Shown: positions 6,672-18,968 of the stretch, one piece after another | Layout of the letters: every line of letters begins with the position of its first letter | Position numbering within the stretch: the stretch's first letter is position 1 | Assembly: GCF_001429185.1 (NCBI RefSeq) | Contig: NZ_LMIW01000001.1 | Coordinates: 1,081,490-1,145,489, forward strand | From: Terrabacter sp. Root85 | Lineage (GTDB): Bacteria > Actinomycetota > Actinomycetes > Actinomycetales > Dermatophilaceae | Length of the DNA: 64,000 bases | Direction of reading: 5' to 3' | The notes under the pieces: generated by a model | Told to the model about the DNA's origin: nothing | The model's input: only the letters and a program-made list of their open reading frames with translations | Databases searched by the model: none | Made by a program: the position numbers and the translations under genes

Positions 6672-7409
6672 TCAGCCCGCTGACGGCATACGCGAGGGGT
6701 TCCCGCCGCCCTCCGCGTCGGCACCTTCGGCAACCCCCGCACCCTCGGCGCCCTCTGCACCCTCGGCGCCCTCGGTGCCCTCGGCGCCCTCGGCGCCCTC
6801 GGCACGGTGGCGGCGCACCTGCCAGACGACGAGGGCCACCACGACGACGACACCCACGGCGACGGCGGCGCCGCGCCCGAGCCACGTCTCGACCCGGGTG
6901 TACGAGCGGCCCGCGAGGTAGCCGGCCGTGACGACGGCGCTCCCCCAGGCGATGCCGCCGGCGGCGTTCCAGACGAGGAAGGTCGGGTAGTGCATCTTCG
7001 ACATCCCGGCCAGGGCCGGCATGACGGCGCGCAGGAACGCGGTCCAGCGGCCGAGGAAGACGGCGGCGCCGCCGCGGCGGCCGAGGAAGCCCTGCGCCTG
7101 GTCGATGCGCCCGCGGTGCCGGTCGAAGGCGCGCAGGGCCACGACCCGGCCACCGAGATGACGGCCGACCTCGAAACCGACGGTGTCGCCGACGATCGCG
7201 GCCACGACGACGACGACGAGGACCGCGGCGAGCGGCACGTGCCCGAGCGAGGCGGCCACGCCACCGAGGATGGCGACGGTCTCACCGGGCACGACGAAGC
7301 CGACGAAGAGCGCGTCCTCGACGAAGACGATCCCACCGACGACGAGGAGCACGAGCCACACCGGTGCGTGGAGGACCTGGGTGGTGATGGTGTCGAGCAG
7401 GGCGCTCAC
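6672..7409 (-). CDS. DedA-family membrane protein with Glu-Gly-Ala repeat tail
   Basis: DedA (SNARE-associated/VTT) proteins are inner-membrane proteins linked to lipid carrier flipping and membrane homeostasis. Seen here: FVEDALFVGFVVPGETVAI near the N-terminus, the family motif GRHLGGR, then FLGRWTAFLRAVMPALAGMSKM (the conserved F.[GR]R..P.R...G motif) and C-terminal membrane helices. GTG at 7409 (VSALLDT) is chosen because AGGAG stands 8 nt upstream. After the last helix the protein ends in about 45 residues of EGA/EGT tandem repeats encoded by 9-bp repeats, not part of the family fold. 245 residues in all. Confidence 0.9.
   Translation of the reverse strand: MSALLDTITTQVLHAPVWLVLLVVGGIVFVEDALFVGFVVPGETVAILGGVAASLGHVPLAAVLVVVVVAAIVGDTVGFEVGRHLGGRVVALRAFDRHRGRIDQAQGFLGRRGGAAVFLGRWTAFLRAVMPALAGMSKMHYPTFLVWNAAGGIAWGSAVVTAGYLAGRSYTRVETWLGRGAAVAVGVVVVVALVVWQVRRHRAEGAEGAEGTEGAEGAEGAEGAGVAEGADAEGGGNPSRMPSAG
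6740..6803. repeat. 9-bp tandem repeat coding the DedA tail
   Basis: Imperfect tandem copies of GCCCTCGGC, some with T or A substitutions. They encode alternating Glu-Gly-Ala on the minus strand at the DedA C-terminus. Copy-number slippage is likely between strains. Confidence 0.8.
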
Positions 7410-8317: not shown

Positions 8318-9634
8318 TCAGGCGGTCGGGCTGGCGTCGCCACTGCCGAGCAGGCGGGCGCCGACGCCGACCCCGGCCTGACCGCGGGCGACGTCCAGCA
8401 GCGCGTCGACCGCGCCGCGGGCGCTCTCGCCGCTCCACGTCATCCGCGACACCGTGAGCCCGGCGACCATGGGGGCCGCGAACGACGTGCCGCTCCAGGC
8501 GGCGAGCCCGTCCGGGAAGTCCTCCTTGCGGCCGACGAGCGGGGGCTCGCGGTAGACGTAGGTCCCCTCGGGGAAGGCGTTCACGACGTCGGTGCCCAAC
8601 GCGTACACGTCGACCCAGCTGCCGTGGTTCGAGAAGCCCGCGCGGGCGCTGCCCTCCTCGTCGGCGAGCGCCCCGACCGACACGGCCCACGGGAAGGCAG
8701 CCGGCCAGAACGGGCCGCGGTCGCCGTCGTTGCCCGCGGCCGCCACGAGCACGGTCCCCTTGAGGTGACGCAACCGTCGCTCCCAGAAGACCTCGAAGGA
8801 CAGCAGGGGCAGGTTGCGCCGGGTCCGCGTGCCGCCCGACAGGTTGATGACGTCCGGCGCGTGCCGGAGGGCCCGGACGAGGCCCCTGACGACGTCCGTC
8901 TCGAAAGCCGCGCCCCCGACCGAGAGCACGGCCTCGACGCGGACCTCGGCCGCGGGCGCGTACGTCCGCACGACGCCCGCGATGAACGTGCCGTGTCCGG
9001 TGTAGTGGCCGACCGTCGGGGGCTCGGGCGGGCCCGTCACACCCTCGAGCCACGAGTGGGCGGCGATGACGTCGCGCAGTGTGCCGGTGTCGACGACGAC
9101 GACCCGTCCGCTGCGGCCGTCCATGTTGTCCGGGACGACGGACTCGTCGAAGGAGTCGACGGACCGGGGCTGGGGCTCCTTGGCCATGCACCACGTCACT
9201 GGCGTCACGTGGATGAGGTGGTCCGGGGTCGCCACCCCCACCCCGAGAGCGTCGTCGAGCTCGGCCACGACCGAGGGCACGTGCGCACGAGCGGGCAGGA
9301 CGAGGGCGTGCAGGCCGACGGTCTGCTGCGGCGTCTCGTCCCCGGCCTTGTCGACCGGGAGGTCGAGGCCGAGGTGCGTCACGACCCTCGGCACGTCCTC
9401 GTCGCGGACGAGGACGACGCCGGGCCGGTAGAGGTAGCGGGCCACGCCGTGCGCGTCGCGCTCGACCCCGAGGTCGCGTCCTGCTCGTCGGAACGCCTTG
9501 ACGATGCGGCGCACCTGGACGTCGGACCGGTCGGTGACCACCCCGTCGTCCCAGGGATCCCACCACTGGATCGCGCGCAGGACGTCATCGCGCCCGCCCA
9601 CGTTCGAGTTGCTGCCATCATCACTGGTAGTCAT
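8318..9634 (-). CDS. Cytosolic subtilisin-like serine protease (S8)
   Basis: 438-residue S8 protease with a complete triad: Asp182 (VVVVDTGT), His214 (GHGTFIAG) and Ser384 (SGTSFAAP), plus oxyanion Asn302 (AAAGNDG). There is no signal peptide or membrane segment, so it should act in the cytosol, unlike mycosins and secreted subtilisins. The first ~170 residues are an unassigned domain rich in Val/Asp/Arg that may act as a prodomain or interaction module. ATG at 9634 has GGAGG 7 nt upstream. It diverges from the TPR-CHAT gene with only 38 nt between starts, so promoters must overlap the coding regions. Its neighbours suggest a proteolytic relay. Confidence 0.9.
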   Translation of the reverse strand: MTTSDDGSNSNVGGRDDVLRAIQWWDPWDDGVVTDRSDVQVRRIVKAFRRAGRDLGVERDAHGVARYLYRPGVVLVRDEDVPRVVTHLGLDLPVDKAGDETPQQTVGLHALVLPARAHVPSVVAELDDALGVGVATPDHLIHVTPVTWCMAKEPQPRSVDSFDESVVPDNMDGRSGRVVVVDTGTLRDVIAAHSWLEGVTGPPEPPTVGHYTGHGTFIAGVVRTYAPAAEVRVEAVLSVGGAAFETDVVRGLVRALRHAPDVINLSGGTRTRRNLPLLSFEVFWERRLRHLKGTVLVAAAGNDGDRGPFWPAAFPWAVSVGALADEEGSARAGFSNHGSWVDVYALGTDVVNAFPEGTYVYREPPLVGRKEDFPDGLAAWSGTSFAAPMVAGLTVSRMTWSGESARGAVDALLDVARGQAGVGVGARLLGSGDASPTA

Positions 9635-9672
9635 GAGTTACCTCCGGGGCGGGGACATGAAACAGGTCCGAC

Positions 9673-12330
9673 ATGAACGCCAGACATGCAGCAGACGAGG
9701 CGGCCGCCGCGGCTGATACACGTCCCCCGAGCCCTGTCGCGGACGACCTGCTCCCTCTCGCAATATCCCAGCCCGGCCTCGCCACCACAACGGCTCTGGA
9801 GCTGCTGGCCGGACCGGCCGGGCCCCACGAGCGTTCGCTCGCACACCACGCCCTCGCCATCGTCGAGCGTGACCGCGGGCGCACGGAGGCCGCCCTCGCC
9901 CAGGCGAGACGGGCCGTGGCGTACGCCCGTCGCGCGGGGCCCGACCGCGAGGCGGAGGTGCGGGCGACGCTCGGCACGACCCTCGTCTTCGCCGGGCGCA
10001 CCGCCCAGGGACTGCTGCAGCTGGAACGCGCGCTGCGGCTCAGCACCGGCCCCACCCGGCACCGGGTGCTCCACCTGCGCGGGTGCACCTTCTGGCTGCT
10101 CGGTCGCTACGACGAGGCCGTGCAAGACCTCACGCGGGCCGTGGAGCTGAGCCGGCGGGCACACGACCGTCTCTGGGAGGGAAGGGCGCTCGGGTCGCGT
10201 GGCGATGCCCGCCGAGCGCTCGGTGACGCCGACGGGTCGAGCGCGGACTACGCCGCCGCCGAGGCCGTCCACCTCGAGATGGGGGCCGTCCTGGAGGCGA
10301 CGCTCTCGGCACGCAACCGGGCCCTCGTCGCCCTCCAGCGCGGCGACGTCGTCGTGGCCCTGACGCTGATGGACCAGGCGGAGGAGCGCTACCGGACGGC
10401 CGGGGTCGACTCGGTCGAGCAGCTCGTCGACCATGCCGAGGCACTGCTCACGGCCCGGTTGGCCGCCGAGGCGGAGGGCCTGCTGGAGGCCGCGCTGGCG
10501 CGCCCCGACCTGGCGCCGGTGTGGCGGGCCGACCTGCTCCTCGCGTCGGCGCGCGCCGCGCTCCTGCAGGGCCGGTGGGAGGCCGCGGCCACGCGCGCCC
10601 GTGAGGCCGAGCTGACCTTCCGCGCTCACCGTCGCCACCGGTGGGCGGCCCGGTCGACGCTGCTCGGGCTCGAGGCGGCGTATGCCGCCGAGCAGGAGGC
10701 TCGCCGGTCCACCGAGGGGGTCAGCGCCCTGCCCCGTCCGTCCTTGCCCGAGCTGCTGCACCGGACACGGACGCTCGTACGGGCGCTGCGCCGACTCGAC
10801 GACCCGTCCCTGCCGGAGGCCCTCCTGCTGCTGGCGCAGGTCGCCGGCGACACCGGCCACGAGCGCCTGCGGTCTCAGTCCCTCCGAGACGCCTCCGACC
10901 GGCGCAGCTACGGCGCGCCCCTGCCCCGTGCCGCGGCCTGGCTCGCCCAGGCGCTCCTCGCCGAGCAGGCCGGCGACCGGCGCGCGCTCCGGCACTCCTG
11001 CCGGCGGGGGCTGGACGCCGTCGACGAGCACCGGTCGCTCATCGGCGACCTCGAGCTGCGCGCCCTCGCGAGCGGTTACGGGCTCGACCTGGTCTCGATC
11101 GCCGTCGCGGACGCGGAGGCGGCCGGTGACGCCCGGGCCGTGCTCTGGTGGACCGACCGTTGGCGCGCGACCGCCCTCACCGGGCCGGCCGTGCGCCCGC
11201 CCGACGACCCGGAGCTGGCGAGCCAGGTCTCGGCGCTGCGTGACGTGACGCGCCGCCTCACCCTCGGCGGGGAGGAGCACCACCTGGTGCGTGAGCGCGC
11301 GCGCCTGGAGTCGGCGGTGCGCAGCCGCTACCGCCGGCTGCGCGCCGGAGGCACCGACCACGTCGGCCGCGACCTCGACCGTCTCACCGACCGTCTAGGT
11401 GAGACGACGCTGCTCTACGTCGCGATCGTGCGCGGGTCGCTCGTCGCGGTCACCGTGGCCGACGGACGGGCTCGGCTGCGACGCCTCGGCGACGCCGCGT
11501 CGGTCGAGCGCGAGGCGACGTACGCCCGCTTCGCCCTGCGCCGGGCCGCCTACGGGCGCGTCGTCGACGTGTCGGCTGCCGGGCAACGGCTCCAGGACGC
11601 CCTGCTCGGGACGCCCGATCCGGCCTGGTGCCGTCCGTCAGTGCTCGTCGTCCCGGCCGCCTCGCTGCTGACCGTGCCCTTCGCGCTGATGCCGGCGCTG
11701 CGGGACGCGGCCCTCACCGTCTCGCCCTCGATCGCCCTGTGGGCTCGGTCGCGCGAGGACGCTCCGCCTCGGTCATCGCACGGGCACGTCGCCCTCGTCA
11801 CGGGCCCGGGCCTCAGCTCCGAGCAGCGCGAGGTCGCCGACCTGCGTCGCCTCCACGGGGACGCCGTGGTGCTCGGCGGCGACGCCGCGACGGTCGAGGC
11901 CACCCTCGGTGTGCTGGAGGGAGCCCGACTGGCCCACCTCGCGGCCCATGGCGACTTCCGGGCGGATGCGCCGCTGTTCTCGTCGCTCCTGCTCGCCGAC
12001 GGGCCCCTCATGGTCCACGACCTCGACCGGCTGAGACGACCCCCACGCTCGGTCGTGCTGTCTGCGTGCGACTCCGGGGGCGTCCACCCGATCGGCGCCG
12101 ACGAGGCGCTCGGTCTCGTGTCGAGCCTGCTCGCCATGGGCACGCGGTCGGTCGTCGCGAGCGTCAACCCGGTCAACGACGCCGCCACGGTGAGGGTCAT
12201 GTCGACCGTCCACGCAACCGTGGCCGCGGGCGGGTCGCTCGCCGACGGCCTTCGTGACGCCCGGGCCGCCGGAGCCGAGGACCCGCTCCTCGCGGCCACG
12301 GCCGCATCGTTCACCGTGTGGGGTGGCTGA
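9673..12330 (+). CDS. TPR-CHAT caspase-like protease
   Basis: 885 residues. The first ~600 are helical repeats of TPR type (for example LERALRLSTG, GRYDEAVQDLTRAVELSRR, AEGLLEAALARPDLAP), a sensing or scaffold array. The last ~270 are a CHAT domain (caspase HetF associated with TPRs) with the catalytic dyad His759 (HLAAHGDF) and Cys799 (VVLSACDSGG) intact. CHAT proteases act in conflict and signalling systems; the type III-E CRISPR effector Csx29 has the same TPR-CHAT architecture. Here no cas gene accompanies it. Partners are the divergent S8 protease and the convergent sigma/161-residue pair 18 nt downstream. The substrate is unknown. Confidence 0.9.
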   Translation: MNARHAADEAAAAADTRPPSPVADDLLPLAISQPGLATTTALELLAGPAGPHERSLAHHALAIVERDRGRTEAALAQARRAVAYARRAGPDREAEVRATLGTTLVFAGRTAQGLLQLERALRLSTGPTRHRVLHLRGCTFWLLGRYDEAVQDLTRAVELSRRAHDRLWEGRALGSRGDARRALGDADGSSADYAAAEAVHLEMGAVLEATLSARNRALVALQRGDVVVALTLMDQAEERYRTAGVDSVEQLVDHAEALLTARLAAEAEGLLEAALARPDLAPVWRADLLLASARAALLQGRWEAAATRAREAELTFRAHRRHRWAARSTLLGLEAAYAAEQEARRSTEGVSALPRPSLPELLHRTRTLVRALRRLDDPSLPEALLLLAQVAGDTGHERLRSQSLRDASDRRSYGAPLPRAAAWLAQALLAEQAGDRRALRHSCRRGLDAVDEHRSLIGDLELRALASGYGLDLVSIAVADAEAAGDARAVLWWTDRWRATALTGPAVRPPDDPELASQVSALRDVTRRLTLGGEEHHLVRERARLESAVRSRYRRLRAGGTDHVGRDLDRLTDRLGETTLLYVAIVRGSLVAVTVADGRARLRRLGDAASVEREATYARFALRRAAYGRVVDVSAAGQRLQDALLGTPDPAWCRPSVLVVPAASLLTVPFALMPALRDAALTVSPSIALWARSREDAPPRSSHGHVALVTGPGLSSEQREVADLRRLHGDAVVLGGDAATVEATLGVLEGARLAHLAAHGDFRADAPLFSSLLLADGPLMVHDLDRLRRPPRSVVLSACDSGGVHPIGADEALGLVSSLLAMGTRSVVASVNPVNDAATVRVMSTVHATVAAGGSLADGLRDARAAGAEDPLLAATAASFTVWGG

Positions 12331-12348
12331 GGGCCTGTGCCGTGCGGG

Positions 12349-12834
12349 TCAGCGGGCGTCGAACCATGGCGTCGACATGACCCGCGCGCCGTCGTGCTCC
12401 AGCACGATGCGAGCCAGGCCGAGCGGCACCCGCTCGAAGGTGAACTGGCCGTCGTCGAGGTCGAGGCGGGTCAGCGACGCGGACGTCTCGAGCAGCACCT
12501 GGGAGCCTGCGGCATACGGCCGCTCTGCCCGCATGACCACGCCGACGACGTTCGAGAAGTCACCACGACGACTCATCTCCAGCTCGATGGACACGCCCTC
12601 GTGCTCGAAGACGATGAGGTGGGAGGCCATGCCCGACCCGTTTGCGTCGCGCACGGCTGCCTCGTCCAGCGTCCCGGTCATCAGGCGCATGAGCGCCGTG
12701 TCGACATGGCGCAGCTCGAAGGCGGCCCGGCCGAGCTCGACGACGGCATCGGGCACGGGGTCGACGACCGCCGCGATCCGTCCCAGACGGTCGAGGAGCT
12801 CGAGGTCGTCCGGGTGCAGCTCCTGGTCAGACAT
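12349..12834 (-). CDS. 161-residue partner of ECF sigma, carboxypeptidase-regulatory-like fold (putative anti-sigma)
   Basis: Starts by TGATG overlap with the sigma stop, so it is made in fixed ratio to the sigma factor. Residues 1-55 are helical and acidic (SDQELHPDDLELLDRLGRI; VVELGRAAFELRHVDTAL); residues 65-161 are beta-rich (LIVFEHEGVSIELEM, QVLLETSASLTRLD, GQFTFERVPLG) resembling a carboxypeptidase regulatory-like beta-sandwich. There is no membrane segment or zinc motif. Such proteins accompany sigma, CHAT and S8 genes in other Actinobacteria as I recall them, but I know of no assigned function. By position it is the best candidate for a soluble anti-sigma factor and a possible protease substrate. 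Confidence 0.75.
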   Translation of the reverse strand: MSDQELHPDDLELLDRLGRIAAVVDPVPDAVVELGRAAFELRHVDTALMRLMTGTLDEAAVRDANGSGMASHLIVFEHEGVSIELEMSRRGDFSNVVGVVMRAERPYAAGSQVLLETSASLTRLDLDDGQFTFERVPLGLARIVLEHDGARVMSTPWFDAR

Positions 12835-13418
12835 CAGGGCCTCCCCCTCGGGTCGAAGATGTAGCCGGAGGCGCCGATGAGGTCGCGCAGCTTGTCGAGG
12901 CACCGCATCCGGGTCGGCCCGATCGAGCCGACCGACATCCCGAGCGCGTCCGAGATGGAACGGTAGTTCGGGCGGTCGCTCGCCATGAGGGCCCGGAGGA
13001 GCACCTGACAGCGCTCGGGCAGGTGGCAGAAACACGTCCAGAGCTCGCCGTCGCGCTCGTCGTCGAGCAGTGCGGCGTCGAGCGCCAGCACCTGGTCGTC
13101 GACGACACGCGTCGCGAGGTCGTCGTCGCGCACGAGGTGCTCGCGGCCCCTCTTGCGCAGGACGGCGAGGCACTCGTAGCGAGCCGTCGTCGAGAGCCAG
13201 CCCGCCAGGGCTTCGGGCTGCGCGATGGTGTCGAGGTGGTCGAGGAGCTTGAGCCACGTGTTCTGCACGACGTCGGCGGCGTCCTCCTGTCGGAGCCGGT
13301 GGCCGCGCGCGACGCCCCACAGCAGTGACGAGAAGCGCTCGACGACGGTGTTCCACGCGGCGGCGTCTCCCTGCGAGGCGCGGGCGACCAGCTCGGTGAG
13401 TTCACCAGGTTCGCCCAT
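12834..13418 (-). CDS. ECF sigma factor of the CHAT/S8 locus
   Basis: 194 residues. Region 2: SSLLWGVARGHRLRQEDAAD, VVQNTWLKLLDHLDTI, then GWLSTTARYECLAVLRKR. Region 4: LPERCQVLLRALMAS followed by the helix-turn-helix YRSISDALGMSVGSIGPTRM. The SVGSIGPTR recognition helix is the form seen in sigma factors placed beside CHAT/S8 genes. ATG at 13418 follows a purine-rich AGAGGAGGGG site. A possible -10 (TAGACT, minus strand 13448-13443) lies about 25 nt upstream. The stop overlaps the start of the 161-residue partner gene. Its promoter targets are unknown; the S8 and CHAT genes are obvious candidates. Confidence 0.9.
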   Translation of the reverse strand: MGEPGELTELVARASQGDAAAWNTVVERFSSLLWGVARGHRLRQEDAADVVQNTWLKLLDHLDTIAQPEALAGWLSTTARYECLAVLRKRGREHLVRDDDLATRVVDDQVLALDAALLDDERDGELWTCFCHLPERCQVLLRALMASDRPNYRSISDALGMSVGSIGPTRMRCLDKLRDLIGASGYIFDPRGRP

Positions 13419-13523
13419 GCGTCGCCCCTCCTCTGGGTGCTCAGTCTAGGTCTCACACCGGGCAGACGCGGCTGTCAAGCGAATTGATACGTCCCAGGGG
13501 GCACGCGTGGCCCGGGCATGCGA

Positions 13524-13606: not shown

Positions 13607-13882
13607 TCACTTCGACGACGTCTGCTTCTGCGACTCGGCGTTGGTCTTGCACTTCTTGCCCATGGCGTCGAGCTTGTCGCCGGCGGCCGAGACGACCTGG
13701 CGCTGGCCGTGCCAGTCGCTCTGGAAGCGGTCGGCGTCGGTGCCGCCCCAGTTGCCCTTGATCGTGGAGACGGCGCCGTTGACGGCCTCGACGATGCCGT
13801 CGAGCTCGCCCTTGTAGCCGACGAGCTTGTCACCGGACGCGGACACCGCGTCGGCGTTCATACCCTTCTTGTAAACAGCCAT
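13607..13882 (-). CDS. WXG100 (ESAT-6-like) protein, second of the pair
   Basis: 91 residues with the W-x-G turn at GNWGGTDADRF near the middle and flanking amphipathic helices, the fold of small type VII secretion substrates. The C-terminal half (DWHGQRQVVSAAGDKLDAMG) is helical. A C-terminal YxxxD/E signal is not obvious. ATG at 13882 follows AAGGGG. It lies 54 nt after the other WXG100 gene and probably forms a heterodimer with it, as EsxA/EsxB do; the heterodimer is inference. Confidence 0.93.
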   Translation of the reverse strand: MAVYKKGMNADAVSASGDKLVGYKGELDGIVEAVNGAVSTIKGNWGGTDADRFQSDWHGQRQVVSAAGDKLDAMGKKCKTNAESQKQTSSK

Positions 13883-13936
13883 GTCAGTTCCCCTTCAGGA
13901 GTGAAGCGTGTGTAGGTCGTGGTGAGATGAGGTGGA

Positions 13937-14212
13937 TCAGTACTGCGACGAGGTGCTGCGCTGCTGCTGGACCTCGTGGTCGATCGTCGACTTCATCTCG
14001 GTGAGCAGCTTCTGGGCCTTCTGGAGCTCGGGACGGTGCGTGCCGGTCCACTCCTGCTCGAACTGCTTGGAGTCGTCACCCTGCCAGTTCTGCTTCAGGG
14101 ACTCGACCTCCTGGTCGACCTTCGTGATGAGCTTCTGGATGGCCTCCGCCTGCTGCTGCAGGACGTTGCCCTGAGCGTTGACCTCATCGTCGTTCATTCC
14201 GAGCCAAGCCAT
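13937..14212 (-). CDS. WXG100 (ESAT-6-like) protein, first of the pair
   Basis: 91 residues with W-x-G at QNWQGDDSKQF. The N-terminal helix is MAWLGMNDDEVNAQGNVLQQ; the C-terminal helix (LQKAQKLLTEMKSTIDHEVQ) is charged. ATG at 14212 has AAGGAGAAGG a few nt upstream, one of the strongest ribosome sites in the window, in line with high expression. Cotranscribed with the second WXG100 gene and preceded by its own candidate promoter region and a palindromic element at 14387-14405. Confidence 0.93.
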   Translation of the reverse strand: MAWLGMNDDEVNAQGNVLQQQAEAIQKLITKVDQEVESLKQNWQGDDSKQFEQEWTGTHRPELQKAQKLLTEMKSTIDHEVQQQRSTSSQY

Positions 14213-14386
14213 GACCTTCTCCTTTGCCTGTGTTCCCCCGACTGATTCGGGAAGTTCTCTTCCGGACCAACCGTGCAGGCCCGCGCTGTGCCAACTCCTC
14301 GACGTCCGCTGGGCCCTTCGGGCAGTTCGTCCCGATGGGCGGCATTCGTCGACATGCAGAAACCTATGTCAGCCCTCGGGGGGTGT

Positions 14387-14405
14387 CGATGGGGAGCACT
14401 CCCCA
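14387..14405. promoter_or_regulatory. Palindromic element upstream of the WXG100 genes (copy 1)
   Basis: CGATGGGGAGCACTCCCCA, a near-perfect palindrome about 186 bp before the first WXG100 start. It matches 18 of 19 bases of the element at 37579-37597 upstream of the T7SS operon head. On the minus strand TAGGTT lies about 28 nt further towards the gene and could be the -10. Function as a shared operator is inference. Confidence 0.6.
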
Positions 14406-14480
14406 TGATTCGTGACCCTGTCGGGCACCGATGGCGTATGCCGTGTCGTGGCGCGAGTTCGCCTGTGCCCCAAAGCGTCT

Positions 14481-14561
14481 CCCCCGCAACACACCGTGAA
14501 GGTCGCAACTCACCGGCATCCGATCCCGGTGTGTCGTGACCTACTCGGTGTGTTGCGGGGG
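14481..14561. repeat. 81-nt inverted repeat between eccC and the WXG100 genes
   Basis: Perfect 16-bp outer arms (14481-14496 with 14546-14561) and imperfect inner arms (about 14500-14515 with 14526-14542). It starts 7 nt after the eccC stop. It probably forms a terminator that uncouples the abundant WXG100 mRNA from the long upstream operon. The rest of 14213-14567 holds the palindromic element and probable promoter. Confidence 0.72.
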
Positions 14562-14567
14562 GAAGGG

Positions 14568-17500
14568 TCACGGGCGGGCTACCTGGAGCAGCTCGAACTT
14601 GCCCTTCTCGATGATGAAACCGCGGCCCGGGGGGAGCTCTGCCCGGTTGAGGGCGGGGAGGTTGGCCTTGAAGACGGAGAGCCCCTCGTTGCCGTCGGGG
14701 TGCAGGGCGAGGCCGGAGCGCGACGTCTTGAGCAGGGCCTGGAGGCCGAAGTTGCTGCTGAAGAACGCTGCCTCACCCTCGGCGACGACGAGCTGGTCGT
14801 TGTCGACGCAGGCCTTGGCGAGGGTCGTCAGGGCGTTCTCGGCGCCCGACGGCGCGAGGTCGTCGATGCGTTCGACGAAGACGGCGATCGGCCTCGTGAC
14901 GCGCCCCTCCTCGATCTCGGCAGCGAGCCGGCTCGCGAGCGCCGACGTGGCCTCGCCGCCGACGGCGGTCTCGGCCCAGATGCCGAGGTCGAGCAGCTCC
15001 GAGGTGCGGCGCGGGGTCATGAGGTAGAGCGCCGAGCCGGAGCTGAACCGGAAGAGGCCGGCGGCGGTCGTCGCGACGGCGGTCGTGCGTCCCGACCCGG
15101 ACGGGCCGGTGATGATGAACGTGCCCTTCGGGTCGAAGCCGATCGGCTCGAGCGTCGAGGACGCGACCCCGACGACGGGACGCCCGCCGAACTCCGACGG
15201 GAGGTCGCCGAGGGGGATGACCTCGGCGAGGCTCTCGATCGGCGGGGCCTGGCTGACGCCGGCCTTGCGGGTCGCGTCGGCGAAGGCCTCGATCGCGGCG
15301 GCCTGCACGGTGACGTCGGACGAGCCGCCGAGCACCGCGACCTGCACCTCGGACCCGGACATGAGCCCGCGCCCCGGGGGTGACGCCATCGTCAGGACGT
15401 CACCCGGCACGCCGAAGACGGAGTAGTCGTCGACGTTGCTCATGCGCAGGATGATCCGGCCCTGCACGGCCGCGGCGAGGTTCGTCGGCAGGCCGGTGCG
15501 CTGGTCGGACGCGATGATGAAGTGGACCCCGACCGGTCGGCCGTCCGCGGCGAGGCCGGCGAGCAGGTCGAGCCACTGGAAGCGGCCGCCGACCTCGTAG
15601 GCCTGGCGGAACGCCGTCATGTTGTCGATGAGGACGATGACGCGCGGCTCGTCGGGGCGGCCGGCGAGGCGGCGGTAGTCGGTGATCGTCGCGGCACTGA
15701 CGGCCGAGTAGCGCGAGGCGCGCTCGTCGATCGTGGACCGGAGCGTGCGGAGGAGGCGGATGACGCGCTCGTGGTCGCCGCCGGGGATGATCGAGCCGAC
15801 GTGCGGCAGGGCCTCGAGCATCGCGAGACCACGGTTGCCGAAGTCGAGTCCGTAGACGTGGCAGGGACCGCCGCGCACCGTGTAGCCGGCCGCGACGGCC
15901 ATCGAGCGGAGGAAGACGGACTTGCCGGAGCCCGACGTGCCGTAGATCGCGATGTTGCCCTCCTTGTCGGGGCGGAACGCGATCTCGGGCTGGGCCTGGT
16001 TGTCGGGGTCGTCGGCGACGCCGAAGACGAGCTCGTCGTCGCGGCGCTGCGTCGGGAGGGTCGCGAGGTCGTAGACCGAGCGCATGTCCGGCAGCCACGG
16101 CTTGCGAGGCTTGGGCAGCTCGGCCACGCGGGCGGCCCGACCGAGCGTGCTGACGAGACGCTGGATGTCGGTGGGCCCGAGGTCCGCGGCGTCGTCGGCG
16201 CCCTCGACGCGCGGCGGCTCCCACTCGACGCCTCGGCCGAAGGTGAGCGTCTCGACCTTCATGTCGGGGGGCGGCGGGACGTCGGAGGTCCACCCACCGG
16301 CATACCCCGTCTGGAAGGGGACGAGCCGGCCGGGGCCGGTCTTGGACACGGCACGGCCGGGCAGCGCTGGGTCGAAGAAGGCGGCCTCCTTGGACCCGAG
16401 CACGTCGTCGGAGTCGTTCTCGTCGGCCATCCGCAGCGCCATGCGGAGGTTGGTGTTGGCGCGGAGGTTGTCCTTGATGACACCCGCGGGACGCTGCGTC
16501 GCGAGGATGAGGTGCAGCCCGAGCGAACGACCGCGCTGCGCGACGTTGACGACGCCGTCGACGAACTCCGGCACCTCCTGGACGAGCGCGGCGAACTCGT
16601 CGACGACGAGGATGAGCGACGGCGGGGCGTCCACCTCTCCGCGACGCTCGAGCTCGAGGAGGTCCTTCGCCTTGTGCCGGGCGAGCAGGTGCTCGCGGTA
16701 GTGCAGCTCGGCCGCGAGGGAGGCGAGAGCGCGGCGGACGAGGTGCGGCGAGAGGTCGGTGACGAGACCGACGGTGTGCGGCAGCTTGACGCAGTCGCGG
16801 AAGGCCGAGCCACCCTTGTAGTCGACGAGCAGGAAGGTGACGCGCTGCGGCGAGTGGGCCGCGGCCATGCCGAGGATCCAGGCCTGGAGCAGCTCGGACT
16901 TGCCGGCGCCGGTCGTGCCGCCGACGAGGGCGTGCGGGCCGTCGGAGCGGATGTCGACGGAGAAGGTGCCCTGGCTCGACTGGCCGACGATGGCACGCAG
17001 GTTGCCGGGCTTGCGGGGCAGCACTGCGGGCGCGTAGGGACCGGTGAGGATCGAGCGCGACTCGCCCCACTTCTCGATGACGGCCTCCTCGGAGCTCGCG
17101 AGGTCGGTGCCGGCGAGGGTGAGGAGCGAGACGGCACGCGGCAGGTCGCTCGCGTCGTCGACGGGGACGCCGGCGTCGACGACCGGTGCGAGCTGGCGGG
17201 CGCAGGCCATCGCCTCGTCGTAGCCGATGCGGTCGACGGCGACGGGCTGGACCTCCTCGCCGGCGTGGACGTAGCCGGCGAGCGAGCTCTGGTCGTCGCT
17301 GACGACGAGGAAGGTGTGGCAGGCCGCCGGGAGCAGCTGCTGGGTCTCGGCGACCCAGAGCACGAGCACGCCCTGGCGGTGGCCGCGCTCAGCGATGGCG
17401 ACGAGGCGGCTGCGGTCGATGGGCGCGTCGCGCTCGACGAGCACGAGGACGGTCGGGCGCTCGGCGCTGGCCTGCTCGCGCTCTTTCGCAGTGCCCTTGG

Positions 17501-18968
17501 CCTCGATGATGTCCTCGAGGGCGTCGGCGAGCGCCGAGCAGGCCGGGGCGCTGGCAGCGAGGTGGTCGGTGCCGATCGGGCTGTGCGGCGACGTCGTGTG
17601 CGGCAGCCACTTGAGGAAGTCCCAGTCGCGGGCCGAGCTGCCCGAGGCGAAGGAGCAGATGGCGAGCTCGGCGGGCGAGTGCAGCGCCGCGGTCTGGAGC
17701 ACGACCGAGCGTGCTGCGCCGAGGGCGTTGGCGCGCTGGCCGGCGACGCCGATGGCCCCGTCGGCGAGCGGGCTCGCGACGATCGGCACGTCGTGCACGA
17801 CCTCGAGGCCGTGCAGCTGCTCGGAGACCTCGAGCCAGGCCTCGGCCTTGGAGCGGCCGACGGCCGGCATCTTGATCGCCGAGCGGGACGGACGGGTGCC
17901 GAGGCCGAGCCGGAGCTCGGCGTAGCCGTTGCCGTCGCGACGACGGGTCCAGAGCAGGGCGCTCCGGTCGCGCACCGCGGTCAGGCAGTCGACGCCGCTC
18001 GGGTGCTCGCCGCGACGGGTATGGCCCTCGACCTCGAGGGAGCCGCGGATGCGCTGCGAGAGCAGGGCGAGGTCCTCCTTGAAGTCCTCCATCGCCTGCG
18101 TGAAGTCCTTCTTCTGCTGGCGGCGGGCCTCGTAGTAGGTGCCCGCCATCATCATCGGCATCATCAGCATGAAGATGATCGAGAAGGCGCTGCGGGTGAT
18201 GAGGTACATGACGATGCCCATGAGCAGCGGCACGATCATCGCGACGAGCGGCATCGGGTTGGGCTTGCCGCGCTCGGGCAGGTCCGGGACCTGGAACTCC
18301 TGGCCGGAGAAGAGCGGCGCCACGCGCGGAGAGCGCGAGAAGGCCACGGTGCCGGCGTCGCCCGACAGCACGCCGCTGCCGGGTCGCGTCACGACGCCGT
18401 CGCCCTGGAGGTGCACCTCGAGCTCGGTGTCGCCGATGCGCACGACGTCACCGCTCTTGAGGTGGGCGCGGGTGACCTGCTGCCCCCCGGCGGTGATGCC
18501 GTTGGCCGAGCCGAGGTCGACGACCTCGACGACCTCCTGGATGACGAGCTTGGCGTGCTTGCGCGAGACCGACTCGTCGGACAGCTGCACCTCGCTGCCG
18601 CGTCCGCGGCCGATGTATGCCGTCCCGCGGGCGAGCGGGAACTCGCGCCCCGCGTCCGGTCCCGACCGGATGTAGGCGACGGCCGCGGGACGGCCGCGGT
18701 CGACGAAGCCCTCACCGGCGCGGGTCGTCGAGACGCGCATGCCGGACTGGAGGCCGCTCTCGGCGACGGTCGCGCGGGGGTCGAGGCCGCGCATGTCCTG
18801 GTCGACGAGGGCGAGCGTCATCGGCGCGTCGACCCCGAGCACGGTCGAGCGGTGCGGGTCGGCCGCGGCGAGGTAGGCGGCGAGGTCCCCGACCGTGGTC
18901 GCGGAGTCCGTCGTCGCGACGAGGTCGGTCTCACGGTCTCCCGACCGGAGGACGAACTTCAGCTTCAC
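14568..18968 (-). CDS. eccC: FHA-EccC type VII secretion FtsK/SpoIIIE ATPase
   Basis: 1466-residue motor of type VII secretion. N-terminal ubiquitin-like stretch, then an FHA domain (about 95-165: AYIGRGRGSEVQLSDESVSR, SANGI) that would bind phosphothreonine. Two membrane helices lie near 235-285. Three FtsK-type ATPase domains follow: Walker A GTTGAGKS near residue 683 with VVDEFA; GTSGSGKS near 1010 with LIDNMT; and a third near 1290 with GPSGSGRT, where Lys is replaced by Arg and Walker B is VERIDD, so ATP hydrolysis there is doubtful. GTG start at 18968 overlaps the transglutaminase-like stop (GTGA). The FHA fits control by the kinase of the same operon. Confidence 0.95.
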   Translation of the reverse strand: MKLKFVLRSGDRETDLVATTDSATTVGDLAAYLAAADPHRSTVLGVDAPMTLALVDQDMRGLDPRATVAESGLQSGMRVSTTRAGEGFVDRGRPAAVAYIRSGPDAGREFPLARGTAYIGRGRGSEVQLSDESVSRKHAKLVIQEVVEVVDLGSANGITAGGQQVTRAHLKSGDVVRIGDTELEVHLQGDGVVTRPGSGVLSGDAGTVAFSRSPRVAPLFSGQEFQVPDLPERGKPNPMPLVAMIVPLLMGIVMYLITRSAFSIIFMLMMPMMMAGTYYEARRQQKKDFTQAMEDFKEDLALLSQRIRGSLEVEGHTRRGEHPSGVDCLTAVRDRSALLWTRRRDGNGYAELRLGLGTRPSRSAIKMPAVGRSKAEAWLEVSEQLHGLEVVHDVPIVASPLADGAIGVAGQRANALGAARSVVLQTAALHSPAELAICSFASGSSARDWDFLKWLPHTTSPHSPIGTDHLAASAPACSALADALEDIIEAKGTAKEREQASAERPTVLVLVERDAPIDRSRLVAIAERGHRQGVLVLWVAETQQLLPAACHTFLVVSDDQSSLAGYVHAGEEVQPVAVDRIGYDEAMACARQLAPVVDAGVPVDDASDLPRAVSLLTLAGTDLASSEEAVIEKWGESRSILTGPYAPAVLPRKPGNLRAIVGQSSQGTFSVDIRSDGPHALVGGTTGAGKSELLQAWILGMAAAHSPQRVTFLLVDYKGGSAFRDCVKLPHTVGLVTDLSPHLVRRALASLAAELHYREHLLARHKAKDLLELERRGEVDAPPSLILVVDEFAALVQEVPEFVDGVVNVAQRGRSLGLHLILATQRPAGVIKDNLRANTNLRMALRMADENDSDDVLGSKEAAFFDPALPGRAVSKTGPGRLVPFQTGYAGGWTSDVPPPPDMKVETLTFGRGVEWEPPRVEGADDAADLGPTDIQRLVSTLGRAARVAELPKPRKPWLPDMRSVYDLATLPTQRRDDELVFGVADDPDNQAQPEIAFRPDKEGNIAIYGTSGSGKSVFLRSMAVAAGYTVRGGPCHVYGLDFGNRGLAMLEALPHVGSIIPGGDHERVIRLLRTLRSTIDERASRYSAVSAATITDYRRLAGRPDEPRVIVLIDNMTAFRQAYEVGGRFQWLDLLAGLAADGRPVGVHFIIASDQRTGLPTNLAAAVQGRIILRMSNVDDYSVFGVPGDVLTMASPPGRGLMSGSEVQVAVLGGSSDVTVQAAAIEAFADATRKAGVSQAPPIESLAEVIPLGDLPSEFGGRPVVGVASSTLEPIGFDPKGTFIITGPSGSGRTTAVATTAAGLFRFSSGSALYLMTPRRTSELLDLGIWAETAVGGEATSALASRLAAEIEEGRVTRPIAVFVERIDDLAPSGAENALTTLAKACVDNDQLVVAEGEAAFFSSNFGLQALLKTSRSGLALHPDGNEGLSVFKANLPALNRAELPPGRGFIIEKGKFELLQVARP

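Follow-up and report, generated by a model that had tools for sequence, protein, structure and literature searches.

A described partnership of a TPR-CHAT protease with an ECF sigma factor is the type III-E CRISPR system CASP or Craspase, composed of Csx29, Csx30 and CASP-sigma, in which Cas7-11 and its guide RNA trigger Csx29 (PMC10028731). The cut in Csx30 falls within a C-terminal loop, in the interval from residue 427 to residue 429, and an alanine scan revealed no residue essential for it (PMC10028731). A second context is that of the sigma factor group ECF54, which is found with conserved carboxypeptidase, subtilase and CHAT genes and for which proteolytic control without an anti-sigma factor has been proposed (PMC8999054, summarising Casas-Pastor 2021 and Huang 2015). 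This class of mechanism is assigned mainly to Actinobacteria (PMC8999054). Caspase-like proteins have also been described in other neighbourhoods that contain an ECF sigma factor and a TPR protein (PMC8195603). Among clan CD proteases more broadly, separase cuts Scc1 after arginine, and according to a modelling study P1 is bound by a pair of acidic residues that includes an Asp in helix 4 (PMC4626109). All of these sources are cited here from the portions of their text available to us.

The stretch of DNA analysed here, a 64-kb window from the genome of Terrabacter sp. Root85, carries four neighbouring genes of related composition. The features referred to below are as follows.

8318-9634, minus strand: S8 protease (subtilase); Pfam Peptidase_S8, E=5.9e-18; triad D182/H214/S384.
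9673-12330, plus strand: TPR-CHAT cysteine protease; CHAT (PF12770), E=1.5e-29, with TPR matches; dyad H759/C799 and conserved D836; relatives in the PDB.
12349-12834, minus strand: P161 (161 aa), a two-domain soluble protein; proposed anti-sigma factor and protease substrate.
12834-13418, minus strand: ECF sigma factor SIG; Sigma70_r2, E=1.1e-11; NCBIfam sigma70-ECF, E=1.3e-18.
12646..12654, minus strand: codons of V61-R62-D63, the proposed cleavage site (P2-P1-P1'), from the translation (VRD) and conservation.
13463..13490, minus strand: promoter motif GTATC-N17-CGTCTG upstream of SIG, from locus comparison.
9692..9719, minus strand: promoter motif GTATC-N17-CGTCTG upstream of S8, overlapping the first codons of the listed CHAT ORF.

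Pfam and NCBIfam matches place all four genes where a preliminary description of this DNA had put them, and the fusion of the sigma gene to that of the 161-residue protein through a TGATG overlap (12836-12832), in which the ATG of P161 overlaps the sigma stop codon, was correctly recognised there. The catalytic residues it reported as intact are indeed conserved: among 50 aligned CHAT sequences (37 in alignment A3, 26 in A5) H759 is found in 47/47 and C799 in 48/48 rows with a residue at that position, and D182, H214 and S384 are kept in all 43 S8 proteins, 28 of which make up alignment A4. A cytosolic location of S8 also fits, as none of the 43 proteins has a hydrophobic stretch (Kyte-Doolittle at least 1.8) in its first 60 residues, a soft test with script-guessed start codons. 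The statement that such loci have no assigned function calls for revision, since both the gene association and the idea of proteolysis had been published as ECF54 in the part of the review available to us (PMC8999054). Literature searches, judged from their listings, brought up no other publication about such loci.

The module apparently works without CRISPR. No array was detected in the 64-kb window in a search for direct repeats of at least 22 nt with copies no more than 120 bases apart, and none of seven proteins scanned around the locus matched a Cas family in Pfam or NCBIfam. The sole close direct repeat in the window at those settings is one of 9-base period at 6718-6805. Directly upstream of the sigma gene, at 13607-18968, lies a pair of WXG100 genes together with a gene for an EccC-type ATPase of type VII secretion; these were rejected as part of the module, an EccC match being present in 5/133 other module loci (L100, L114, L115, L117 and L154; stretches of about 3-20 kb). 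Membership in a defence system was also rejected, given weak PADLOC matches (CHAT to BovA in 10/37, best 1.5e-9; the window S8 to 'subtilase', 5.7e-8).

The reading that we favour, with a probability of roughly 0.55, is a protease-gated sigma switch in which CHAT would cut P161 at R62 and thereby free SIG to induce itself and S8. The preliminary description had already cast P161 as the protein that restrains the sigma factor and serves as substrate for a CHAT protease acting without CRISPR, and this predicted role gains support from three observations treated below, namely the invariant arginine in the P161 linker, the near-constant adjacency of the sigma and P161 genes, and the company that CHAT keeps with P161.

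The four genes form a conserved and widespread module of Actinomycetota. P161 as query finds matches in 18 of the 149 genomes of the order, and a P161 profile in 49 of 396 genomes of the phylum, a rough figure obtained with nine candidates scored per genome and including 15 matches, all of family f34, to the C-terminal part only. Models of the four families applied to 57 P161-query loci identified the sigma gene in 54, CHAT in 45 and S8 in 40, the complete set of four also being present in 40. The best 80 loci of a sigma-query search of named genomes contain P161 in 76, CHAT in 65, S8 in 60 and all four in 57; for the 52 of these loci of at least 18 kb the counts are 51, 46, 45 and 42. Co-occurrence of the four genes, set beforehand as a test of the preliminary description, is strong and exceeds chance with either of two separate queries (40/57 and 57 of the best 80). 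One apparent P161 locus (L040 in G015), with neither a sigma gene nor a profile match, was discarded as a false match. The subtilase and CHAT neighbours that characterise ECF54 are found together with SIG and P161 in the window and in those same 57 sigma-query loci, and SIG probably belongs to this group. Its closest named relatives, among the best matches listed, are from Terracoccus (82% identity), Terrabacter (81%) and Humibacillus (71%). In an alignment of 29 of 57 sigma sequences (A2) the C-terminal signature GSIGPTRxRCL is evident, with G164, S165, G167, R172, C173 and L174 invariant.

Gene order within the module is shuffled from locus to locus, the near-constant element being sigma followed by P161. 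SIG lies directly upstream of P161 on the same strand in 51/60 copies from the P161 query and in 76/77 rows from the best 80 sigma-query loci, and the most common arrangement is a 4-base overlap between the nearest P161 start codon and the sigma stop codon (27/51 and 22/76). The Terrabacter genome itself holds a second full module (L043, G000:C9:149000-168000) in the order S8-sigma-P161-CHAT, with GTATCA before S8, and P161 of this second type is present in 9/9 genus genomes searched. In two loci (L095 and L105) repeated P161-S8-CHAT units adjoin a single sigma gene, perhaps providing several inputs to one sigma factor.

P161 from the window has no Pfam or NCBIfam match of its own. Within its family, 10 of the 15 members match PF13620 (CarboxypepD_reg) weakly, with a best E=6.1e-5; these 15 sequences, drawn from 17 at order level and including the window copy, constitute alignment A1, from which the near copies L034 and L035 were left out. 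No known anti-sigma domain was matched and no sequence relative was found in the PDB. P161 appears, judged by its sequence, to be a CarboxypepD_reg-like protein that nothing marks as an enzyme. The weak PF13620 match is the probable source of the published 'carboxypeptidase' label, and the ECF54 'carboxypeptidase' is probably P161. An AlphaFold2 model (mean pLDDT 83) comprises helices at residues 8-23 and 29-53 and beta strands between 71 and 154, joined by a linker (54-66) that is predicted to be disordered. This linker contains R62, which sits in the sole stretch of at least three residues with pLDDT below 50.

R62 is kept in 137/137 P161 copies, comprising 61/61 of the P161-query set and all of the sigma-query set. 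The alignments hold 138 rows at this position, the one gapped row being half of a copy (L192) split by unread bases, whose other half has the arginine. As some genomes occur in both locus sets (e.g., L104/L188 and L108/L185), counts were also made on clusters, and the arginine is invariant in 64/64 clusters at 50% identity. The preceding residue is mostly V (45/61 and 50/76 in the two sets), with G, S, A or T following in 60/61 and 73/76 copies; the window P161 itself has D there. The distance of R62 to landmarks in the flanking domains varies, from 6 to 23 residues on one side and from 3 to 16 on the other. The pattern [VATILM]R[GSAT] occurs within the linker in 132/137 P161 sequences, against 51 +/- 5.6 after shuffling of each linker. 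As a control on over-reading, a VRG-type motif is also found outside the linker in 103/137 sequences, so that nothing follows from its mere occurrence, only from its constant position. A short motif fixed within a flexible linker looks like a protease site.

Other roles for P161 and its arginine can be envisaged. Instead of being cut, R62 might serve for docking or be modified. P161 might act as a chaperone or co-activator of SIG, or as an adaptor presenting SIG to a protease, in which case R62 would be a binding residue and any cutting would switch the system off. Translational coupling suits a stabilising partner as well as an inhibitor, and the sequence data leave the sign of regulation free. 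The setting of R62, in predicted disorder, mostly followed by a small residue and at variable spacing from both domains, suits cleavage over docking, and we regard a chaperone or adaptor as unlikely. In the favoured switch P161 would bind SIG, and cutting would activate the system rather than inactivate it.

Which protease would cut P161 is a separate matter. The best solved relative of the CHAT protein, PDB 8rot_B / 8rw5 (E=1.4e-15), is labelled just 'CHAT domain-containing protein', and a literature search found no paper on it; Csx29 (7y9x, 8eex) was also matched in the profile comparison with the PDB. D836 is conserved in 46/48 CHAT rows and aligns with Asp in 8rot. The four near-identical chains whose alignments extend over this position and which we take to be type III-E (8d9f, 8d9g, 7x8a and 7y83) have serine where the module CHATs have D836. 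By analogy, D836 may read R62 and correspond to the separase Asp. CHAT also mostly follows P161 across genomes. Twelve P161 loci have no CHAT gene in the stretch examined, three of them having no sigma gene either, and in nine genomes of such loci that were searched (eight with sigma at the locus) a family CHAT is encoded elsewhere in 8/9. In G524 (97% complete) sigma and P161 are present and a CHAT match is absent, which counts against CHAT as the cutter. Among the best 80 sigma-query loci, four have no P161; the genomes of two of these (L133 and L155) have no CHAT match, and those of the other two (L171 and L173) have one.

It has to be considered that S8, rather than CHAT, cuts P161 at R62, with CHAT merely activating S8 in a two-step protease cascade. 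S8 is present in 60 of the best 80 sigma-query loci and, being sigma-induced as judged by the motif described below, is a possible amplifier. Seven genomes whose locus includes CHAT and lacks S8 were searched for S8. In three of these a strong match to the S8 family (E 1e-82 or better) lies elsewhere, as a cascade would allow, one has a middling match (3.6e-16) and one, a MAG, a marginal match. Against this, SIG, CHAT and a P161 that has R62 are all retained in the remaining two, G130 and G144 (both 99% complete), the former having no S8-family match and the latter a marginal one (E=2.7e-5), and S8 must thus be dispensable in at least some genomes. Moreover, three Dactylosporangium loci with S8 and no nearby CHAT (L140, L154 and L169) have family CHATs elsewhere in the genome. 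A cascade through S8 is accordingly improbable, and CHAT is the preferred candidate for the protease that would cut at R62.

A promoter motif, GTATCA-N16-CTC, precedes the S8 and sigma genes of module loci. Over 245 gene or operon starts in these loci, no 6-mer ranks above GTATCA (78 occurrences vs 5.0 expected). With near copies removed, it is present in sense orientation at 40/83 S8 and 32/70 SIG starts (together 72/153) and at 0/60 CHAT starts, against a background of 1.9%; the two-block motif is found at 34 S8, 31 SIG and 0 CHAT starts, against 1.5%. About half of the S8 and SIG starts are without the motif. CHAT starts have it on the opposite strand in 29/60, which is expected from the divergence of CHAT from S8. 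Aligned sites consist of GTATCA, 16 bases, and then C-T-C-C at 60-75% per base.

Within the genus a stricter form, GTATC-N17-CGTCTG, can be followed. Before the sigma gene it is identical in the window, L114 and L115, with a spacer one base shorter in L116 and a variant block in L117; before S8 it occurs in the window, L114 and L116, and as CATCTG in L115. The strict motif has three sites in its own genome vs 1.2 expected, which is not striking alone, and two of them lie in the module from which the motif was derived and are circular, as the test on 245 starts is not. Relaxation to GTATC-N16,17-CGTC yields 23 sites in the same genome vs 10 for a reversed control; this form was rejected as a phylum-wide motif, being upstream of 9/501 module features and too genus-specific. 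Strict sites occur in 5/9 genus genomes, the same five that carry window-type P161. The third site in the Terrabacter genome precedes a gene for a 350-aa protein (L222:5587-6719) with C-terminal hydrophobic segments and no confident Pfam match, a candidate regulon gene whose sole ortholog in the nine genus genomes (G540, 78-80% identity) also has the site, in a form with an altered spacer. In Terrabacter sp. Root181 (L115) the strict motif recurs past the first S8 gene; an ATG 68 bases further on, counted from start to start, begins a frame of 461 codons in which the second S8 match lies. In two genus relatives (L248 and L250) strict sites precede frames whose N-termini, on our own reading, are lipoprotein-like or look secreted.

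The preliminary description had left S8 as either a second protease or an effector. This can be narrowed: the motif points to a sigma-induced gene, and CHAT, P161 and sigma persist without S8 in some genomes. Taken as a whole, the favoured switch would operate as follows. SIG would be kept inactive by its co-translated partner P161 until a trigger that the TPR array probably senses switches on CHAT, the standing sensor. CHAT would then cleave P161 in the flexible linker after the invariant R62 (V-R|G/S type), the two halves would separate or be degraded, and the freed SIG would read GTATCA-N16-CTC promoters, transcribing its own sigma-P161 unit, S8 and a few other genes. S8 would be an induced output or a feedback protease and not the sensor. 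The published view of ECF54, in which proteases degrade the sigma factor itself and keep the system off, with no anti-sigma and with P161 as an accessory, is stated in section 3.3 of the review beside the example of AntA-ClpXP (PMC8999054, in the portion available to us), and is unlikely for this locus given that the 'carboxypeptidase' is probably P161, that a weak match to a regulatory-like domain (PF13620, 10/15) does not justify classing it as a protease, and that the near-constant partner of SIG is P161, which holds the site-like invariant residue, and not a protease.

If the favoured switch is correct, a large orphan ECF group would acquire a mechanism and its 'carboxypeptidase' would be recast as substrate and switch; CHAT-to-sigma signalling would exist without CRISPR. 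A single residue, R62, would make the switch testable, with the GTATCA promoter serving as reporter. More tentatively, CHAT-driven cleavage of anti-sigma factors may be an ancient and general form of actinobacterial signalling, in which the cut, as with separase, is specific for arginine and falls at one fixed position of the linker, and type III-E CRISPR may represent a similar protease-to-sigma logic to which an RNA-guided trigger was added.

Of the described systems, ECF54 shares with the module a sigma gene neighboured by subtilase, CHAT and, probably, 'carboxypeptidase' genes and a proposal of proteolysis (PMC8999054). The published neighbours were taken to be proteolytic enzymes acting with no anti-sigma factor, whereas our reading makes the 'carboxypeptidase' both the substrate and the anti-sigma factor. 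The co-occurrence of the four genes was thus already known; P161 as the switch was not encountered in the literature searched, and the arginine that never varies in its linker, the promoter motif and the two genomes that keep CHAT, P161 and sigma with no S8-family match or a marginal one go beyond the ECF54 account as available to us. The systems of PMC8195603 also bring together a caspase-superfamily protease, an ECF sigma factor and a TPR protein, with proteolytic activation and sigma-driven transcription proposed; compared by description only, they differ in having the TPR in a separate DUF1822 protein and a caspase with EACC2, and the text available to us mentions neither S8 nor P161. Separase resembles the module CHAT in joining a helical N-terminal region to a caspase-like catalytic domain and in the arginine at P1, which is proposed for the module (PMC4626109), but it acts on a eukaryotic cohesin substrate and its profile similarity to the module CHAT is weak (E about 0.002 to 0.02). 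With Craspase the module shares a TPR-CHAT protease, an ECF sigma factor and sigma sites, putative in the module, in its own locus (PMC10028731), and the two-domain, sigma-binding substrate Csx30 finds its counterpart in the two-domain P161, for which sigma binding is proposed. Csx30, of which residues up to 565 are named, is larger than P161 (PMC10028731); the module differs from Craspase in its 161-aa partner, whose linker contains an arginine that is invariant, in an added S8 protease and in that no repeat array was detected in the window.
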